Position numbers and translations under genes: made by a program
Notes under the pieces: model-generated
What the model saw: the letters and a program-made list of their open reading frames with translations, nothing else
Database searches by the model: none
Told to the model about the DNA's origin: nothing
From: Cryomorphaceae bacterium
GTDB taxonomy: Bacteria > Bacteroidota > Bacteroidia > Flavobacteriales_D > Sanyastnellaceae
Direction: 5' to 3'
Assembly: GCA_016124575.1 (NCBI GenBank)
Contig: WGNM01000007.1
Span: 62,001-126,000 of the forward strand
DNA length: 64,000 nucleotides
Shown here: positions 14,803-42,739 of the stretch, piece by piece
How the letters are laid out: the number at the start of each line of letters is the position of its first letter
Position numbering within the stretch: the first letter of the stretch is position 1

Positions 14803-16383
14803 TCAGTACTTCACCAAACGTTCAATAAAAATATTATTTCCTGAATAGATCCTTATAAGGAACAAACCAGCAGCCCAGTCATCAGTGGAGATATGCATAT
14901 CATTGCTGGTCATATCAGAAAACTGGTAACTTTTAATCAATCTCCCTTCCAAATCTAGAATTTCAACTCTTTCAAAAAACTGATCTGGATCAACCAATGC
15001 TAATCGGAACTCTGAGTTAGTCGGGTTAGGATAGACAATGAAAGCACCTGAAATACCATCAGGGAGATTTCTGCAATCAAATTCGTTAATAACCTTGTAT
15101 TGTTGAGAATTATCAAGAACGTTGACTATCCTTGCGCTAGTAGTGAAATAATTATCAATCAAACACTCTCCAAAATGCATGTTGATGTTTAAAGATTCGT
15201 TTGACCATAATACTTCCCCTGATTCGTTAAATATGAAGAGCAATACTCCAAGTTCACTATTCGTGTTACTCAAGGTAGTATATACAAATTCATATTCGTC
15301 ATCTGAGTTAAAAAAGTGATTCGACACAGATCTGAGATAAGGGGCGCCGACGTCTTCAAATTCAAAAGGAAAGAAAATAGTTTTATAATGCTCGAAGTAG
15401 CCGTTTTCATTAGGAACATATAGTTCTAAATTGATTTCGGACATAGTAGTATAGTTCTCTTCTACAAGCACCTCTTCATTAGGCCCGCTCTGAAATCTGG
15501 TAGACGCCCCATATCCATCAGCACACAATTCAAAACCGGGTAGTCTGTATCATTTATAGTCCAAGGTCTCAACAGCTACAAGGATGTCGTTCACGCCATT
15601 CATTGCTTCAAATCTGAAGTCCCCTTCGAATGCAAACAAAACCTCCCCTGTTTCATTTATTATTTTACCTCCCTCGTATGGAAAATTACTATGCACGAAG
15701 ATTTCAATTCCGTCATCTTGATCGTAAAAGAATCGAGAAACTTCCTCTATAGTTCCAACACCACCTGCACCACCTCCAGGGATATACTCAACTATTTCAA
15801 GGTTTGATGATAATCGAACCAATTGTGTGTTGTATTTACCAAAATACCTTGTCCCTATCTCATCTGAAATAAATTTCACTTGGGTGATGCCATTTGTGCC
15901 CATAGGAAAAGTGCCAACTTGGCTGTAGGCTACACATCCATTTTGTTTATACAGAATAAGCCTTGAACCACCTGAATGTAGTTTACCCCAGAAAAAATCA
16001 TTCATTGTGTTATACTGGAAAATCTGTTCTTCCGTGCTATACATTTCAACACTTGTCCCTTGGAAATCCTCAAAATGGACAACCAAGTGAAGGTCACTTG
16101 AGTCTGGAGTCATGTAGCGGACAATTTGCATTTTTCGTACTTCTCCAAAATTAAATGGGGTATCAATAGGGAAAGAATCTCTTATTGTATAGTCTTTATT
16201 GAAAATATAAAACATCTCTGTATCATTTCGAAACCCTCCCCATGCAGGCTCTTCGTCTGGAATATCAAGCAATCTAAGATCCGAGCAATTGTGAAAGGTG
16301 CCGATTAGTTCAATATTATCTTGAGCTTTAACCAAAACCATAAAACACACAAAAGAAAGCAGCATTAGAATAATTCTGGGCAT
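14803..16383 (-). pseudogene. T9SS cargo protein gene interrupted by an in-frame TGA
   Basis: 527 codons in one frame, broken once. The 5' part (15550-16383, 277 residues) begins with a signal peptide (MPRIILMLLSFVCFMVLVKAQ). TGA at 15550-15552 stops it after ETLDYK. The same frame continues with YRLPGFELCADGYGAS to 14803. The 3' part carries a C-terminal T9SS type A sorting domain (FIVYPNPTNSEFRLAL, GRLIKSYQF, AAGLFLIRIYSG, ERLVKY). The signal peptide and the sorting signal are on opposite sides of the stop, so neither half could be secreted and attached properly. The middle is beta-rich with no recognised domain. The region looks more A+T-rich by eye than its neighbours. A sequencing error is the main alternative to a true pseudogene. 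Confidence 0.8.
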
Positions 16384-16532
16384 GGGGTCGTTCGCTTTAT
16401 GTTTATTCTTGGATAATTTTTCAATCCATTATTTACTAAGATTACAATTTATGCACCCAATTCCCCAACCCATTATTTATGAATATTGAAGTCTTACTGC
16501 AGCCATTCAATCACATGATCGCTTCAAAACGC

Positions 16533-17711
16533 TCATTTAATCAACAACGACGAATCGCCATAGGACAAAAACCGATAGTCTGTCTCTAAAGCATGATCGT
16601 AAACTTTTTTCCAATCATCACCGATGAGGGCAGACACCAGAAACAGCAGCGTACTTTTCGGCATGTGGAAATTGGTGAACAGACCTGTGATGGATTTTAC
16701 TTCGTAGCCAGGAGAGATCATGATGGCTGTTTTAAACCGACATCCATCCCATTGCTGTGATTCAACTTGTTGAGCAAGAAACACCATCGCATCTTCGAAA
16801 CAAGCGAAGGGGTCAGGAAAATTGTATGCATCGGTTTGCAGCACTTCATGTTGAGGGGTTTTAGAATGAAACCACTTCACCGCTATCCACCTCAGGCTTT
16901 CGAGCGTGCGCAAAGAAGTAGTGCCAACAGCAAAACGGGCAGTTTTAAGAGATAGACTTTTGATTGTCGATAGCGGCACAATGCACTCCTCTTCATGCAT
17001 GGTATGATCGGCGATACTGTTTTGGGTAACCGGCTTAAACGTTCCTGCGCTCACATGCAAAGTTACTGGCACCAATTCAGCTTGCATGGCAGTAATTATT
17101 TCAGGAGTAAAATGCAGTCCGGCAGTTGGCGCAGCCACACTACCCGGCTGTTTCGCATAGGTTGTTTGATACCTCAAAACATCATCATCATCAGCCTCTC
17201 GCAGCATGTAAGGCGGCAGAGGGATGTTACCAACGACATCGATTAGTTCAGCGAAAGAGGCCTCTGACGACCACGTCAAACGAATCAAGAACTTCTCTTC
17301 ATCTCGGTTCACACGTTCAGCAGCTATCGTAACACCCTCGTGAGTTAGCTTTACAACCCCTTCTTTCCACTTTTTCGCCCCGCCAACCATGCACAACCAC
17401 AGCGACTCAGAGCGATGGCTCATGGCCTCTTCGACCGACACATTGAACGGTTGCAGCAAGAAAATCTGCACCTTCCCTCCTGTTTCCTTTTCAAGGAAAA
17501 GACGAGCGTGGATCACCCGTGTATCGTTCACCACCAATTGTGCATTTTGCGGCACTGCTGATACGACATCGCTAAAGTTCAGATCGGAGATAGCACCTGA
17601 CTTATAGATCAGAAGTTTAGCGCCTTCACGTGACGCTGCCGGGCGATCGGGAATTCTGTCAGCTGGCAAATCATAGTCGAAATCGCTCGCTGCGCAATGT
17701 AACTGCTTCAT
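16533..17711 (-). CDS. queA: tRNA preQ1(34) S-adenosylmethionine ribosyltransferase-isomerase QueA
   Basis: 392 residues. QueA transfers the ribose of SAM to preQ1 in tRNA to make epoxyqueuosine, the penultimate step of queuosine synthesis. Family hallmarks: SDFDYDLPADRIPDRPA at the N terminus, VVNDTRVIHARL near 60, PLPPYM around 165, QPGSVAAPTAGLHFT around 190, and LHVSAGTFKPV around 220. Length is in the range of Bacteroidota QueA. The only queuosine gene in this window. Its ATG is 4 bp after a consensus -7 box, so the transcript is probably leaderless. Confidence 0.95.
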   Translation of the reverse strand: MKQLHCAASDFDYDLPADRIPDRPAASREGAKLLIYKSGAISDLNFSDVVSAVPQNAQLVVNDTRVIHARLFLEKETGGKVQIFLLQPFNVSVEEAMSHRSESLWLCMVGGAKKWKEGVVKLTHEGVTIAAERVNRDEEKFLIRLTWSSEASFAELIDVVGNIPLPPYMLREADDDDVLRYQTTYAKQPGSVAAPTAGLHFTPEIITAMQAELVPVTLHVSAGTFKPVTQNSIADHTMHEEECIVPLSTIKSLSLKTARFAVGTTSLRTLESLRWIAVKWFHSKTPQHEVLQTDAYNFPDPFACFEDAMVFLAQQVESQQWDGCRFKTAIMISPGYEVKSITGLFTNFHMPKSTLLFLVSALIGDDWKKVYDHALETDYRFLSYGDSSLLIK

Positions 17712-17715
17712 GCGG

Positions 17716-17723
17716 CAAAGGTA
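17716..17723 (-). promoter_or_regulatory. -7 promoter box for queA, abutting the start codon
   Basis: Reverse strand TACCTTTG, exact TAnnTTTG match. Only 4 bp separate it from the queA ATG at 17711, so transcription should begin at or near the A of the start codon. Confidence 0.6.
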
Positions 17724-17734
17724 AGATAGCGAGA

Positions 17735-17767
17735 TAAAAAAACAGCCCCGAACGTTTTCGGAGCTGT
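17735..17767 (-). terminator. Terminator of the ECF-TonB-FecR operon
   Basis: On the reverse strand ACAGC-T-CCGAA, loop AACG, TTCGG-G-GCTGT (one internal mismatch) is followed by TTTTTTT. It lies 130 bp after the FecR stop and its T-run is about 12 bp from the queA -7 box, so terminator and promoter are nearly fused. Confidence 0.8.
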
Positions 17768-17899
17768 CTTAAACCTTAACTAAAACTAACTATACTATTG
17801 AAGATGATTCAGAACGAATCACCAACTTTGTGGTACAAAAATCATAATAGATACCGACGTATCTGCAAAAACCCCACCACTATTCACACTTTTTTGCAA

Positions 17900-37270: not shown

Positions 37271-38068
37271 CTATTCAGGAATCACCAACAAAGGTGTCTT
37301 GGTGTGCATGGCCAGCGTGCGTGAAACACTCTTGTGGAATATTCTTTCAAACAACCCATAGTCGCGACGCACCATGATCAGCAAATCGATGTCTCCGGTA
37401 TTCAAATAGTTGTCTAACCCACTTGAAACATTATCTGAAACAACGTGCACCACTTCCGGCGACAGACCGCCAAGTTGAAAACCCAAATCAGACTTACTCG
37501 AACCACTGACAACCTTCTCATTCACGTGCACTGCTTCAAAAGATGCCATTGTAAGCTGCGCGAAACGGCCGATGTGATTTGTTGCCGTGCCATCCAATGG
37601 TTGAAAATCGGTAGCCAGCGCAATTCTTTTCGGTTGTTTGCACGCTGTACCTTCGGGAATGATAATCAGCGGCACTTTGGTGCTACGCATTGCATTTGCA
37701 GTATTACTGCCAATTATTTTCTTGTGTAAATCGTCGGAGCCATTGGTGCCCATCACCACATAATCGAACTGCTCTTTTCTGTTCATCGTGCGTATGACAT
37801 CATTCAGAGCCCCTTCTTTCACCTCGCCTCGCAGGTTGGTAATATTCTGTGCGCTTATTTTCAGTTCTGAAATCAAATCATGCATCGATCTTTCGGCATC
37901 TTCTCGCAACAAATCTTCAATACTTACGAGCATACCTGTTCCTGTGTGCGGAATTTGCCATGTGTTCAAAATCACCAATTCAGGGTTGTGAGCACCGAAA
38001 AGACACACCGCATACTCTAAAGCCGTTCGTGAGTTGGGACTAAAATCTGTGGGGATAAGAATTTTCAT
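37271..38068 (-). CDS. Universal stress protein, tandem UspA domains
   Basis: 265 residues made of two Usp domains (about 1-140 and 145-265). The first keeps the ATP-binding pattern G-x2-G-x9-G-S in MGTNGSDDLHKKIIGSN; the second has lost it (MVRRDYGLFERIFHKSVSR). It opens with KILIPTDFSPNSRTALEYA, typical of the family. Usp proteins are cytoplasmic and respond to starvation, oxygen loss and other stress. It lies 40 bp after a second usp gene on the same strand and is the last gene of the stress cassette. Confidence 0.92.
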   Translation of the reverse strand: MKILIPTDFSPNSRTALEYAVCLFGAHNPELVILNTWQIPHTGTGMLVSIEDLLREDAERSMHDLISELKISAQNITNLRGEVKEGALNDVIRTMNRKEQFDYVVMGTNGSDDLHKKIIGSNTANAMRSTKVPLIIIPEGTACKQPKRIALATDFQPLDGTATNHIGRFAQLTMASFEAVHVNEKVVSGSSKSDLGFQLGGLSPEVVHVVSDNVSSGLDNYLNTGDIDLLIMVRRDYGLFERIFHKSVSRTLAMHTKTPLLVIPE

Positions 38069-38108
38069 CTGGCGAATCTGGTATTATTGATTAGATTGGG
38101 AAGATGGT

Positions 38109-38957
38109 TCATTTAACCTCTTTGACAACTTCAATACGCTGACTGAGTACTGAACGAGAACTGTGATTGGCAACGTCTTCAGCAATGCTCTGACGAAAGA
38201 AATGCGCTAAACCAGTTCGTCCGTGTGTTTCAATTAACAACAAATCAGCATCCAATTCATCAGCCATGGCATGAATGCCTTTTTCGACCATCAAATCGTT
38301 GTAGATATGAAACTCTGGTTCTTTGAGCCCTGCTTTAGCTGCAAAATCGCTCATCAAACCCCGTGTGTAATGTGTGCCTTCAAAATTGGCAGGAGTAATG
38401 ACCTTGACCAAATGAATTTTCGCATTGAAAAGGTCAGCAAAGTCTTTCAGTTTACGGAAAGACTCAACCGACTCTTCGAAGAAATTAGAAGCGAAGACAA
38501 CATTCTTCGGATTGAAATCGGTAATCCTTTCTTTGATGGTTAGCACCGGACAATAGGCAGTGCGGATTATTTTTTCAGTATTCGAACCCACAAGGAATTC
38601 TTGTGCACCCGAAGAACCGCGAGAACCCATGACGATGAGATCGATCTCGAACTCTCTGGCTTTTTCGGTAATGGTGTCGTATACATTCTCCCACTGCAAC
38701 ACTTCTGCTACCTCCACCCCTTCAAAAAATGGTTGATTGATGAGCTTTTCAAACTCTTGCTTCGCTCGCTTCAAAAGGAAAATACCTTCCATTGTATCGG
38801 GAACCTCGCTGAAACTATCGTTCCTGGAGTAAGAAGGCATATCAATTGCGTGCAATAAGAACACACGTGCGCCTGTTTTTTTCGCAATGCCCGCAGCTAC
38901 CTCAGCAGCATAATAGGCAAATTCTGAAAAGTCTGTTGGTACAAGTATACGTTTCAT
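38109..38957 (-). CDS. Universal stress protein, tandem UspA domains
   Basis: 282 residues, two Usp domains. The first carries an intact nucleotide motif G-x2-G-x9-G-S (MGSRGSSGAQEFLVGSN, about 120-136). The second ends with ETHGRTGLAHFFRQSIAED, a partial version. N terminus KRILVPTDFSEFAYYAAEVA. It precedes the other usp gene in the same transcription unit. An 18-bp perfect palindrome (39028-39045) lies 71 bp upstream of its ATG and about 30 bp upstream of a TATAAT-like box (39001-39006, reverse strand), a position suited to Crp/Fnr-type activation. Confidence 0.92.
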   Translation of the reverse strand: MKRILVPTDFSEFAYYAAEVAAGIAKKTGARVFLLHAIDMPSYSRNDSFSEVPDTMEGIFLLKRAKQEFEKLINQPFFEGVEVAEVLQWENVYDTITEKAREFEIDLIVMGSRGSSGAQEFLVGSNTEKIIRTAYCPVLTIKERITDFNPKNVVFASNFFEESVESFRKLKDFADLFNAKIHLVKVITPANFEGTHYTRGLMSDFAAKAGLKEPEFHIYNDLMVEKGIHAMADELDADLLLIETHGRTGLAHFFRQSIAEDVANHSSRSVLSQRIEVVKEVK

Positions 38958-39027
38958 GGCGAAGTATTTAAGGGGGTGAAAATTCCGAAATCGGGAAAAA
39001 ATTATACCTGACGTCTATTAAAAGAAA

Positions 39028-39045
39028 AACTGACAATTGTCAGTT
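39028..39045. promoter_or_regulatory. 18-bp perfect palindrome, candidate Crp/Fnr-type operator (site 1)
   Basis: AACTGACAATTGTCAGTT is identical to its reverse complement. As a dyad it reads CTGAC-N4-GTCAG, the half-site spacing of Fnr/Dnr boxes. It lies between the 134-residue gene and the usp gene; its centre is about 42 bp upstream of the start expected from the TATAAT-like box at 39001-39006. On the reverse strand it is followed by TTTTCTTTT, so it could instead, or also, be an intrinsic terminator. Confidence 0.55.
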
Positions 39046-39450
39046 CTACATCCATTTCGTCAAAAACTGATTGAATTCTACTCTCAAATCAGCGAATAGC
39101 TTTTCCATTGTGGTCATGCGGTCAGCCAATCCGGAATGGTATGTATGATAAGACTTCGTAGCTGCTAAAGGGTTTTCTTCAACTTCTTTCACGATCTTGT
39201 TTTCATGCAGCTTGATGTCGTGTTCCAAAATATCGATCACCTCACGCTCACGAATAAATCGGTTTTGAAACTGTTCAACACCCTGGCGTTCTTCAACACT
39301 ACTGTTTTTCATGCTCACCTCAGCAAGGCGATTTGTGAGCACAACCAACTCATCTTTGTAGAAATCCAATTGTTTGAACCACGCCATGTGATCTGCATGT
39401 AACACATCTATATGCGTACGTTCTTCTGGGGCAATTTTATCTTTGTTCAT
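39046..39450 (-). CDS. Conserved helical protein of the stress cassette
   Basis: 134 residues, highly charged, predicted almost entirely helical with coiled-coil character (FQNRFIREREVIDILEHDIK, HENKIVKEVEENP). No signal peptide, membrane segment or cysteine. His residues in HIDVLHADHMAW and YHTYHSGL recall four-helix metal-binding folds, but the spacing does not let me assign hemerythrin. It lies 21 bp after the 113-residue gene on the same strand and is surely co-transcribed with it. Function unknown; the neighbours suggest a stress role. Confidence 0.75.
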   Translation of the reverse strand: MNKDKIAPEERTHIDVLHADHMAWFKQLDFYKDELVVLTNRLAEVSMKNSSVEERQGVEQFQNRFIREREVIDILEHDIKLHENKIVKEVEENPLAATKSYHTYHSGLADRMTTMEKLFADLRVEFNQFLTKWM

Positions 39451-39471
39451 CTTGATGTTTTATTTATTCTA

Positions 39472-39813
39472 TTAATATTCTTCAGTGTTGATGCGGCTTA
39501 GCGCCCAATCGTCGGTACGTGTGGTCTCCAACCATAGCTTTCCTGATTGACGAAAGACCTGAACGTGCATACCCGACTTCTCAAAAATCGACTCTACCTG
39601 CTCAACTGTCATTTCAGGATCAATGAATAGCGACAACGGCGCCTTGACCCATCGCGACAAACTTTCATTATCATCGATCATTTGAGACGCGGGAGACCCT
39701 TTGCCTTTCGCGTGCGATGACTCAAACAAGCGCAGCGACAAACGCGGAAATTCCAAGTGAAACTGAGCTCTTAAAGACCCAACAGTTGTTTCAGGATTGA
39801 TTACAATGTTCAT
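39472..39813 (-). CDS. Conserved small protein of stress/redox clusters
   Basis: 113 residues, soluble. N-terminal part INPETTVGSLRAQFHLEFPRL and the C-terminal block GMHVQVFRQSGKLWLETTRT plus DDWAL resemble small unannotated proteins I associate with usp genes in other Bacteroidota; no named domain or catalytic motif. It is the first gene of the stress unit. A -7-like box CATCTTTG (39870-39877, reverse strand) lies 57 bp upstream of its ATG, and a dyad matching site 1 lies about 51 bp further upstream of that box. Confidence 0.75.
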   Translation of the reverse strand: MNIVINPETTVGSLRAQFHLEFPRLSLRLFESSHAKGKGSPASQMIDDNESLSRWVKAPLSLFIDPEMTVEQVESIFEKSGMHVQVFRQSGKLWLETTRTDDWALSRINTEEY

Positions 39814-39920
39814 GGCGTTTCGATTTTTTCATTTCCAATTTTGAAAATTGGTGAACGAAAGGTTCTATGCAAAGATGGGAGCACCTCTGCAGGAAATTCA
39901 TGAACTAGATTAGGGGGATG

Positions 39921-39936
39921 ACTGATATGCGTCAGT
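39921..39936. promoter_or_regulatory. Imperfect dyad matching site 1 (candidate operator, site 2)
   Basis: ACTGATATGCGTCAGT: CTGAT-N4-GTCAG, sharing ACTGA-N6-TCAGT with site 1. It is in the 160-bp gap upstream of the 113-residue gene; its centre is about 63 bp upstream of the start expected from the -7-like box at 39870-39877, close to the -61.5 position of class I Crp/Fnr activation. No T-run follows, so a terminator does not explain it. Confidence 0.5.
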
Positions 39937-39973
39937 TAAATCATTGATGCATACAAATCGTAAATACTATCTG

Positions 39974-41035
39974 CTATTTCGACTGACCCGAGTACTTTTT
40001 GAGGATGTCAGGACGACAGATAAGGATGGAACGGCCATGGACTTCGATGCTACCATCTTCTTTGAAGTCTGAAAGGGTGCGAATGAGCGACTCAGTGGCA
40101 GTGCCCACCATTGCTGCTAGGTCGTCGCGGGAGATCCGTATTTCAGCACCACTGCCGTAACGCTCGTGCAACTCAAGCAGGGCTGTTGCTGTGCGCTCTC
40201 GCACGGGAGCATATGCCAATTGAAGCAGTTTTTCCTCTTTGTCGTGCACGTTACCAGCAAGCATCTTAATGAAACGCGCCGCCACATCTCTGTTCGACTC
40301 TATGAGGGTGAGGAAATCGGCTTTGGGAACGAGTAAGGCCTCAGCTTTTTCGAGCGCGATGGCTGTTTCTTTGTGGTCGGAACCTTCGAGAATAGACATA
40401 AACCCGAAGAACTCACCTGCACTGAAAAGTCCGACCACCAGCTCTTTACCATAATGGTCAGACTTGATGATTTTCACCTTACCGCTTTTCAGGAAGAACA
40501 AATAGTTTGGGGTATCGCCTTCACGGAAAACGATTTCTTTGGGAGCAAACTCGCGTGAGCGGCGGTCTTTCGCAAGGTCTTCGAGAGCCAGCAACCCCCT
40601 GGCATCGTTTAGGAAAGATTCAACCCCTGCTTCAAGAGCGTTGTAATCTTTTTTTACTGCATCACTTTTTTTGATCCGACTTTCGATCGCGTTGAGCAGT
40701 TCCATTTCTTCATAAGGCTTGGTAAGATAGTCGTCAGCACCCAGATTCATGCCTTTTCGCATCTCACTCAATTCAGCCTTCGCTGTGAGAAAGATAAATG
40801 GAATGGCCGCTGTTTTCGGGTCTTTCCCCAAGTAATAGAGCACACCATAACCATCCAATTCGGGCATCATGATATCGCAAATTATCAGGTCAGGCAATTC
40901 AGCTTTCGCCTTTTCGACGCCCACTTTACCGTTTTCTGCTGTTACTACCTCATAATTTGCGAGCTCAAGTATTTCGGCTGTGTTCTCGCGCATTTCAAGG
41001 TTATCTTCAATCAACAATATCTTCTTCATGCTCAA
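39974..41035 (-). CDS. Receiver-Crp/Fnr fusion response regulator
   Basis: 353 residues. Receiver domain (1-120) with EDNLEMREN, phospho-acceptor Asp about 54 (LIICDIMMPELDGYGV) and LTKPYEE; a cNMP-binding-like domain (about 150-270, REFAPKEIVFREGDTPNYLF, LFSAGEFFGFMSIL); and a Crp-type winged helix (about 285-345) whose recognition helix reads GTATESLIRTLSDF with the Glu/Arg pair that contacts TGA cores. No Fnr-type cysteine cluster is present (only two Cys, in the receiver and near the end), so it is not itself an Fe-S oxygen sensor. The kinase gene overlaps it by 29 bp, so the two form a pair. Confidence 0.92.
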   Translation of the reverse strand: MSMKKILLIEDNLEMRENTAEILELANYEVVTAENGKVGVEKAKAELPDLIICDIMMPELDGYGVLYYLGKDPKTAAIPFIFLTAKAELSEMRKGMNLGADDYLTKPYEEMELLNAIESRIKKSDAVKKDYNALEAGVESFLNDARGLLALEDLAKDRRSREFAPKEIVFREGDTPNYLFFLKSGKVKIIKSDHYGKELVVGLFSAGEFFGFMSILEGSDHKETAIALEKAEALLVPKADFLTLIESNRDVAARFIKMLAGNVHDKEEKLLQLAYAPVRERTATALLELHERYGSGAEIRISRDDLAAMVGTATESLIRTLSDFKEDGSIEVHGRSILICRPDILKKYSGQSK

Positions 41036-42551
41036 TTGTTTTAGGTAAACTGACAGTGAACGTTGTGCCTGTTTCGGGGGAGCTCACAAAACGAATTTCT
41101 CCTTTCAGTAAATCTACATATCTCTTTACAATGTGCAAACCCAGTCCGGTACCCTGAATATTAAAGGCGTTGGTAGCCCTAAAAAATCTTCCGAAAAGAT
41201 GCTCTTGCTCTTTTTGAGGTATCCCAATTCCACTGTCGCTAACGGAGATTTCAACGAACTCTTTCGCATCGTTGCAGCCAATAACCACCTCGCTATTTTC
41301 AGGTGAGTACTTCAAGGCGTTTGAAATCAAGTTGATCATGACATTTCGCACCATCTGTTCATCTGCATGGATGATGCAATTCTCATGAACGTTGAAAAGG
41401 ATGTTTTGTCCTGGTTTCTTCAATCCTTCGATTTCTTCTATGAGATCGATGATGAGCACTCGGATATCGAAGCTTTTGACATTCAAATGCACCAACCCTT
41501 CTTCGAGTTTGTCGAGCGATAAGAAATCATTCAAAATCGCTGTTAAATTTTGTACGCTGGCGCGGATGCGATTGAGGTGTTTCTCTCTGCGCTGTTCTTC
41601 TTCTATTACCTGCGCTTTCTTCAAGAGATTCACACTCGATAATATGGTGCTTAGCGGAGTCCTGAACTCATGCGATGCCATGCTCACGAAGCGCGACTTG
41701 AGTTCATTGAGGTCGCGTTCTTTTTCGAGCGCAAGCTGCATATTGCGCTGAGCGATTTTCTGGTCGGTGATGTTTTGCTCTACAAGGAGAATCTGTGAAA
41801 TAACATCATTGCTGTCGAGCAATCCCACAGCATTTAACTTATAAGTCAGCCCACGTGTTTCAATCTCAAAACTGCTGTCGTGTCCTTCAAAAACTTTCTT
41901 TAATCGACCCCCAATTTCATCTCTCACATCTTCGGGCAAACGGTTCAAATAACTCGTCCCCACGAGCGCTTCACTGCTTAATTTGTAGCGAAATAGTTCT
42001 TGTCCTTCAGCGAATACATAGTTCAAATCGCGGTCGAAAACGTTGATGGTACCATTCGGGAAATTCCGCGAAATGGTGCGATAAAGCAGCTGACTCTCTT
42101 TCAGTTTCTCGGTGCGCTCCTCAACCATGCTTTCAAGCGATTGATTTAGCTTGCCGAGCTTTTCTTTCGCCTCTTTTCGTTCGGTAATATCGGTTACCAA
42201 AGCCACGACCAGCGTCTCATCATCCTGCTTTAAATGATTCAAGCTGATTTCTACAGGAAACTCTGATGCGTCTTTTCGAATGGCACAAAGATCCATATCC
42301 TGACCCATTGAGCGCTTGCGCGGTGCTTTGTTGTAATCGTTGCGCTCTCCCACATGTTTGTGCCGCAAATTCATGGGTATTAAGACTTCAACAGCTTGGC
42401 CAATTAACTCATCTGACTCATAACCAAACATCTCCTCAAGGCGGCGGTTGGCTACCAAAATCTGTCCAGATCTATTGGCTACCAACAGTCCTTCAGATGC
42501 CGAATCAAACAACAGTCGTCCGGCACCATCCTTCAGAATTTCAATAAGCAT
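41007..42551 (-). CDS. PAS-domain sensor histidine kinase (FixL-like layout)
   Basis: 514 residues from ATG 42551. No membrane segment, so cytoplasmic. PAS1 (about 10-125: LFDSASEGLLVANRSGQIL, RRLEEMFGYESDELIGQ, LIPMNLRHKHV) resembles the FixL PAS domain, but by eye the FixL haem-His position is Arg. A coiled coil (KLGKLNQSLESMVEERTEKL) links to PAS2 (about 160-285), then HisKA SMASHEFRTPLSTILSSVN (His about 305) and HATPase (ISNALKYSPENSE, DSGIGIPQKE, GTGLGLHIVKRYV). The frame is open 35 codons upstream, but a -7 box lies there, so ATG 42551 is preferred. It overlaps its regulator gene by 29 bp. Confidence 0.92.
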   Translation of the reverse strand: MLIEILKDGAGRLLFDSASEGLLVANRSGQILVANRRLEEMFGYESDELIGQAVEVLIPMNLRHKHVGERNDYNKAPRKRSMGQDMDLCAIRKDASEFPVEISLNHLKQDDETLVVALVTDITERKEAKEKLGKLNQSLESMVEERTEKLKESQLLYRTISRNFPNGTINVFDRDLNYVFAEGQELFRYKLSSEALVGTSYLNRLPEDVRDEIGGRLKKVFEGHDSSFEIETRGLTYKLNAVGLLDSNDVISQILLVEQNITDQKIAQRNMQLALEKERDLNELKSRFVSMASHEFRTPLSTILSSVNLLKKAQVIEEEQRREKHLNRIRASVQNLTAILNDFLSLDKLEEGLVHLNVKSFDIRVLIIDLIEEIEGLKKPGQNILFNVHENCIIHADEQMVRNVMINLISNALKYSPENSEVVIGCNDAKEFVEISVSDSGIGIPQKEQEHLFGRFFRATNAFNIQGTGLGLHIVKRYVDLLKGEIRFVSSPETGTTFTVSLPKTIEHEEDIVD

Positions 42552-42581
42552 ATCCTGTTTCACGTGGTAGAAATCTATCTG

Positions 42582-42589
42582 CAAAGGTG
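42582..42589 (-). promoter_or_regulatory. Probable -7 box for the kinase-regulator operon
   Basis: Reverse strand CACCTTTG, one mismatch to TAnnTTTG, 30 bp upstream of the ATG at 42551. The CTGAY-N4-GTCAG dyad is not present in this 215-bp divergent gap, which suggests no autoregulation. The gap also contains a 6-bp hairpin (CACGCT-GCG-AGCGTG, about 42659-42673). Confidence 0.4.
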
Positions 42590-42739
42590 CACATTTCAAA
42601 TTAAACAAGCGGCCCTGAACACACGCCGACATCCGTAGAAAACAAAGCATCAACATCCACGCTGCGAGCGTGCGAAAAAATGATGATAAAAAGCAGAATC
42701 TTACCCACTTGAAACCTGTATAAACGCGGGAGAAATTAG

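Follow-up and report, generated by a model that had tools for sequence, protein, structure and literature searches.

The closest described relatives of the system reported here act on the genes of the cbb3 oxidase and on hemN. FixK lacks an iron-sulfur (Fe-S) cluster and acts through FixLJ on targets that include cco and hemN, and in Caulobacterales FixLJ-FixK has taken the place of FnrN at sites already there (PMC4999443). For FixK2, the box reads TTGA/C-N6-T/GCAA, and a usp and hemN2 are among the targets listed (PMC9104804). In Myxococcus xanthus, NmpR acts on cbb3, hemN and a universal stress protein (Usp) gene (PMC11841059). We compared these systems with a six-gene cassette in a 64,000-nucleotide stretch of Cryomorphaceae bacterium DNA (the window; assembly GCA_016124575.1, contig WGNM01000007.1, positions 62,001 to 126,000). 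The cassette encodes a PAS-PAS histidine kinase and a regulator in which a receiver is fused to a Crp/Fnr half, and we consider it likely that the two form a two-protein hypoxia switch for hemN-ccoI, the cbb3 genes, a pair of genes for 113- and 134-amino-acid (aa) proteins and the Usps.

Like rhizobial FixL-FixJ-FixK, the locus has a FixL-like PAS kinase and a Crp/Fnr-type output without the FNR cysteines; the candidate boxes show TGA-N6-TCA spacing, and their predicted targets are cbb3, hemN and Usp genes, the sites being assigned here by sequence only. Unlike that cascade, the cassette has receiver and Crp/Fnr half in one protein and no separate FixJ-type regulator gene among its six genes, to which the FixJ search was confined. 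Phosphorylation of the factor, not transcription of fixK, would therefore be the point of control. In the proposed mechanism, the first, FixL-like PAS of the kinase would sense low oxygen, or a linked heme or redox signal, and the activated kinase would phosphorylate the receiver of the fused regulator. The Crp/Fnr half of the phosphorylated regulator would then bind ACTGAY-N4-RTCAGT boxes and presumably switch on, rather than repress, hemN-ccoI, the cbb3 genes, the 113/134-aa pair and the Usps. The FixL-FixJ-FixK pathway would thus be performed with its last two steps in one polypeptide. Like this pair, NmpRSTU of M. xanthus is a heme-dependent kinase system with a regulator acting on cbb3, hemN and Usp; unlike it, NmpRSTU uses a protoglobin sensor, NtrC-like regulators and a multi-component relay (PMC11841059).

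The kinase gene (41007..42551, minus strand) encodes Pfam PAS, HisKA and HATPase domains and, by hydropathy, no membrane segment; its start is probably the ATG at 42551, the longest open reading frame (ORF) beginning at 42656. The regulator (39974..41029, minus strand; 351 aa) combines a receiver, a cNMP-like domain and a Crp/Fnr winged helix with the sequence GTATESLIRTLSDF (Pfam Response_reg, cNMP_binding and HTH_Crp_2, the last at 57.7 bits against a cut-off of 27), and D52 occupies its phospho-acceptor position. The first-pass annotation of this DNA had described a PAS kinase, a receiver-Crp fusion, two unknowns and two Usps, and had read the fusion as the FixJ and FixK steps joined. Gene order and Pfam domains agree with the description, and comparison with relatives supports the reading, receiver and Crp/Fnr helix lying in a single protein. 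The overlap that it reported between the kinase and regulator genes exists; its length of 29 bp presupposes a TTG start at 41035, whereas the ATG at 41029, the start homologous to that of relatives, gives 23 bp. Among the 36 adjacent pairs described below, 15 overlap by 4 bp.

In an alignment of 27 fusions, E8, D9 and K104 were invariant, D52 was kept in at least 90% of the rows and the recognition helix was strongly conserved. The same rows contained neither the N-terminal CxxC nor the central Cys of FNR-type proteins, and the sole invariant Cys was C51, in the receiver. Control by cAMP was set aside, as the CRP equivalog model scored 90.1 bits against a cut-off of 266. Two loci carry unusual forms, neither with an adjacent kinase: a fusion with Glu in place of the phospho-acceptor Asp (L085, 6084-7148) and a 685-aa open frame containing the fusion (L073, 6061-8118).

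The fusion was present in 31 of 60 genomes, that of the window counted. In a phylum sample of 118 genomes it was found in 17, namely the window's own and 16 of the same class, and in none outside that class. One match (G021) spans residues 96-351 only. A scan of the genome contigs gave at least 80 loci among the matches listed, the first 12 of which (L157-L168) were read as fusion loci. The kinase gene adjoins the fusion in 36 of the 40 Bacteroidota loci counted, which do not include L158, where the gene finder took another frame, or L167, where the contig is cut; the pairing seen in the window is thus conserved in other members of the phylum. Named carriers include an uncultured Aquimarina, Arcticibacter, Jiulongibacter, Sphingobacterium and Chitinophaga, the last without a kinase beside the fusion.

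Some of these pairs sit within cbb3/hemN/Usp clusters, and in L159, L162, L164 and L168 hemN, a P-type ATPase gene, ccoN or ccoG lies close by. The neighbours are hemN and ccoG in Arcticibacter and Aquimarina, hemN and a heavy-metal P-type ATPase gene in Sphingobacterium, and a heavy-metal P-type ATPase gene with ccoN in one Bacteroidetes metagenome-assembled genome. In addition, ccoN was found over its cut-off in 20 of the 31 genomes with the fusion and in 6 of the 29 without it (p=0.0008). Because the pair accompanies low-oxygen oxidase, heme and stress-protein genes in many Bacteroidota, it looks like a shortened form of the rhizobial oxygen-sensing cascade. One genome, G016, holds a remnant of the pair: a 401-aa frame (L309, 487-1689) joins the PAS-PAS region and HisKA start of the kinase directly to the winged helix of the regulator, about 1.5 kb being absent relative to G033. 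A haem-NO-binding (HNOB) gene follows at 1794-2333, in a stretch that aligns downstream of the fusion in G033. G016 has no ccoN over the cut-off, yet it keeps a perfect dyad ahead of a Usp-like gene (L144).

The candidate box is the palindrome ACTGAY-N4-RTCAGT (ACTGAYNNNNRTCAGT). The 3.68-Mb genome has no match to its reversed form and three to the palindrome itself, which stand ahead of Usp1, ahead of the 113/134-aa genes, and ahead of hemN on contig C1. The two copies in the window, where 100 shuffles gave none, are strandless 16-mers. One (ACTGACAATTGTCAGT, 39029..39044) is placed between the stop of the 134-aa gene and Usp1, its centre 79 bp ahead of the Usp1 start; the other (ACTGATATGCGTCAGT, 39921..39936) is located 108 bp ahead of the 113-aa gene. 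Both had been seen before, the former with a span of 39028-39045, which takes in one extra base on either side.

Sites numbered 53 in fusion genomes against 14 for the control (p=1.8e-6). In fusion neighbourhoods totalling 537,365 bases, the strict 14-mer occurred 25 times and its reversed form once, and the loose box TGAY-N4-RTCA occurred 131 times, against 15 for the reversed and 81 for the half-site-swapped control. The loose box stood at most 150 bp upstream of 17 of 31 Usp genes, 12 of 35 kinase genes, 5 of 11 genes for homologues of the 113-aa protein, 2 of 7 for those of the 134-aa protein and 1 of 38 fusion genes, counts that leave out L157 as well as L059, which is a 98% identical copy from the same genus. 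None of the five classes had a hit with the reversed control; the half-site-swapped control gave 2, 3, 1, 0 and 0, respectively. The fusion gene mostly follows the kinase gene directly. In 8 of the 17 Usp sites the dyad centre lies 75-81 bp before the start. The dyad upstream of usp therefore recurs in other Bacteroidota, and such dyads, taken as Crp/Fnr-type boxes, are found at the same types of target in relatives.

The third perfect dyad of the genome heads a cluster on contig C1 in the order hemN, heavy-metal P-type ATPase (in the place of ccoI), box TTTGACAACGGTCAAA, ccoNO, a 70-aa ORF (in the place of ccoQ), a ccoP-like gene and ccoG, followed by two genes named by eye as ccoH and a SafE-like protein. 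The NCBIfam cut-off was exceeded by hemN, ccoN, ccoO and ccoG; ccoP fell below it, and the 70-aa ORF and the last two genes gave no match. This is a hypoxia gene set. The cassette had been called self-contained, which does not hold, since this dyad lies ahead of hemN and the cbb3 cluster on another contig. All 25 usable loci (27 were read, and 2 were too short upstream) had the box TGAY-N4-RTCA (TGAYNNNNRTCA) at most 400 bp upstream of ccoN; in dinucleotide shuffles the mean was 0.9 and the maximum 5. In L297, a gene with several CxxCH motifs, recognized by eye, and a type IX secretion system (T9SS) tail domain (15594-17774) is divergent to hemN across the dyad. Perfect dyads were also observed ahead of MBL-fold/rhodanese-type genes in L105, L123, L126 and L098 (Pfam for L123, the others by eye). 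Others stand ahead of genes for oxygen-using enzymes in L108, L141 and L137 (Pfam for L108, the others by eye), two homogentisate-dioxygenase-like and one tryptophan-dioxygenase-like. Taken together, the sites argue for widening the Usp cassette of the first-pass annotation to a putative cbb3-hemN-Usp hypoxia regulon, and its main idea still appears the best one.

The first PAS of the kinase matched in the PDB, after 10jx (a kinase with unstated ligand, E=4.8e-15), FixL (1d06, E=1.9e-13) and DosP, and the corresponding PAS of Arcticibacter matched FixL at E=1.4e-30. At the aligned position that we take to be the proximal heme His of FixL, 34 of 36 kinases have His; the exceptions are L059, which is cut off, and L075, which has Val. 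These matches and this His bear out the FixL analogy drawn earlier, although a His at this position would be necessary and insufficient for heme. The position that presumably equals the distal Arg of FixL is Arg in 11 of the 36 kinases and Met in 14 (the window kinase and 13 others). The fuller FixL motif IIG(I/L)GR is found in 4 of the 11 Arg kinases (L065, L067, L162 and L168); those of Arcticibacter and Sphingobacterium are among its keepers, with L065 and L067. Heme binding and oxygen sensing by the window kinase we only infer, because its distal Arg position is Met and the fuller motif is kept only in some relatives.

Which regulator the fusion stands in for is suggested by the 26 genomes with ccoN. 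The fusion is present in 20 of them, one of which (G045) also has a solo-length match, and all six that lack it carry a solo FNR (Fisher p=3e-5). Outside this set, both proteins were matched in G058 and, more weakly, in G017 and G041. The six solo FNRs have a CxxC plus a Cys 99 residues on, presumably the ligands of a 4Fe-4S cluster, and in four of the six genomes the gene lies at most 8 kb from ccoN on the same contig. Like these proteins, the fusion has a box upstream of ccoN and a similar recognition helix, [TA]ATE[ST]LIR being common to both; unlike them, it lacks the N-terminal CxxC and the central Cys, and receiver and kinase replace the sensor. The best solo matches to the Crp half of the fusion are those FNRs (E about 1e-31 to 1e-27).

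In a tree made by a quick method without bootstrap, 36 fusion winged-helix halves formed one clade (SH-aLRT 94). The solo FNRs with Fe-S-type cysteines need two changes on this tree because they are interspersed with two solos that lack CxxC, and no sister group of the fusion clade was singled out among the solos. Descent of the fusion from an Fe-S FNR we infer from sequence similarity and distribution. The nearly exclusive distribution is best read as the fusion taking the place of the solo Fe-S FNR of related ccoN genomes. With some reserve, we lean towards a one-time sensor exchange in Bacteroidota, in which an Fe-S FNR exchanged its cluster front end for a receiver that takes its signal from a FixL-type kinase. 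Phosphorylation would then control the Crp/Fnr factor directly, and FNR would have been displaced by a shortened FixL-JK switch, with its boxes at cbb3, hemN and usp left unchanged. This would parallel the alphaproteobacterial change from FnrN to FixLJ-FixK, in which a Crp/Fnr factor under a kinase likewise took over existing sites from a one-component Fe-S regulator. Unlike that case, which is explained by gene transfer and a three-protein cascade (PMC4999443), the exchange here would have been one of domains within one protein.

Several observations weigh against a hypoxia switch of this kind. On the sensor side, 10jx outranks FixL among the PDB matches, and the window kinase has Met at the distal Arg position; since 14 of the 36 kinases have Met there and 11 have Arg, the heme pocket, if present, varies. 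The pair may instead sense another cue (nitric oxide, the quinone redox state or starvation), or the fusion may repress, in which case the genes would not be hypoxia-induced through the pair. The HNOB gene behind the remnant in G016, in a stretch aligning downstream of the pair in G033, would fit such a cue, and carbon sensing is predicted for other Flavobacteriales Crp/Fnr homologues (PMC8510549). We nevertheless consider this unlikely: the target set of cbb3, hemN and Usp is that of FixK regulons (PMC4999443, PMC9104804), some relatives retain a full FixL-type PAS, and ccoN genomes hardly ever combine the fusion with an FNR that has Fe-S-type cysteines. Starvation, named as a possible signal in the first-pass annotation, was set aside, as the recurrent targets (cbb3, hemN and Usp) are those of a hypoxia set.

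On the side of distribution and DNA, 11 of the 31 fusion genomes have no ccoN over the cut-off, the fusion is not associated with hemN over the cut-off (14 of 31 vs 9 of 29, p=0.30), and all association tests ignore kinship. No dyad precedes the kinase gene in the window. Genomes without the fusion had 16 sites against 9 for the control (p=0.23), a ratio not significantly different from that of fusion genomes (p=0.18). The ccoN boxes occur in genomes with and without the fusion; therefore, the boxes alone cannot name the regulator. Another Crp/Fnr protein could bind the dyads while the fusion controls something else, and the genome of the window has one further HTH_Crp_2 protein over the cut-off, a 227-aa solo regulator at C43:89137. 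Its gene adjoins MBL and rhodanese genes, the types that perfect dyads precede in relatives; a looser box (TGACCAAGATCA) overlaps its end, about 80 bp ahead of the rhodanese gene, and a second lies inside the MBL gene. This assignment seems improbable, as the 227-aa regulator falls in a distant clade with the recognition helix SREVISRLL, no perfect dyad is close to its gene, and no homologue was found at E <= 1e-8 at the four MBL dyad loci or in 29 fusion neighbourhoods. The fusion, on the other hand, shares its helix with the solo FNRs of genomes whose ccoN bears the box. Half of the perfect sites read in other fusion genomes (23 of 46) lie inside ORFs called by a crude gene finder, and the loose box exceeds its half-site-swapped control by only 131 to 81. 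Both points would suit an accidental local arrangement of dyads and neighbours without regulatory meaning. We regard such an accident as very improbable, given that pairing and box placement recur across loci, that the reversed control was absent upstream in all five gene classes, and that the strict 14-mer so exceeded its reversed form.

All six genes of the cassette are on the minus strand, and their positions were confirmed by ORF reading of the window and Pfam. The remaining four encode the 113-aa protein (U113, 39472..39813), the 134-aa protein (U134, 39046..39450), and the universal stress proteins Usp1 (38109..38957) and Usp2 (37271..38068), each with two stretches of Pfam Usp. Neither Pfam (E <= 0.001) nor NCBIfam (E <= 0.1) had a model that matched U113 or U134, and a PDB fold search with their structure models, each built on a 3-sequence alignment, gave no match at E <= 0.001. 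U113, homologues of which were aligned from 10 other fusion loci, is modelled as an alpha/beta fold that appears beta-grasp-like by eye. U134 is modelled as three long helices; a hemerythrin-like diiron protein was considered and set aside, given these helices and only W24, F30 and E34 being invariant in an 8-row alignment.

No description of this fusion at cbb3 loci was found in the open-access literature, judged mostly from listings. If the two-protein hypoxia switch is real, it would reveal how the high-affinity oxidase and Usps are controlled in many Bacteroidota, and it would provide a case of a Crp/Fnr factor switched by phosphorylation. It would also represent a natural sensor swap at one and the same set of DNA boxes, with a receiver and PAS kinase in place of an iron-sulfur cluster; therefore, the evolution of oxygen control would be testable with chimeras.

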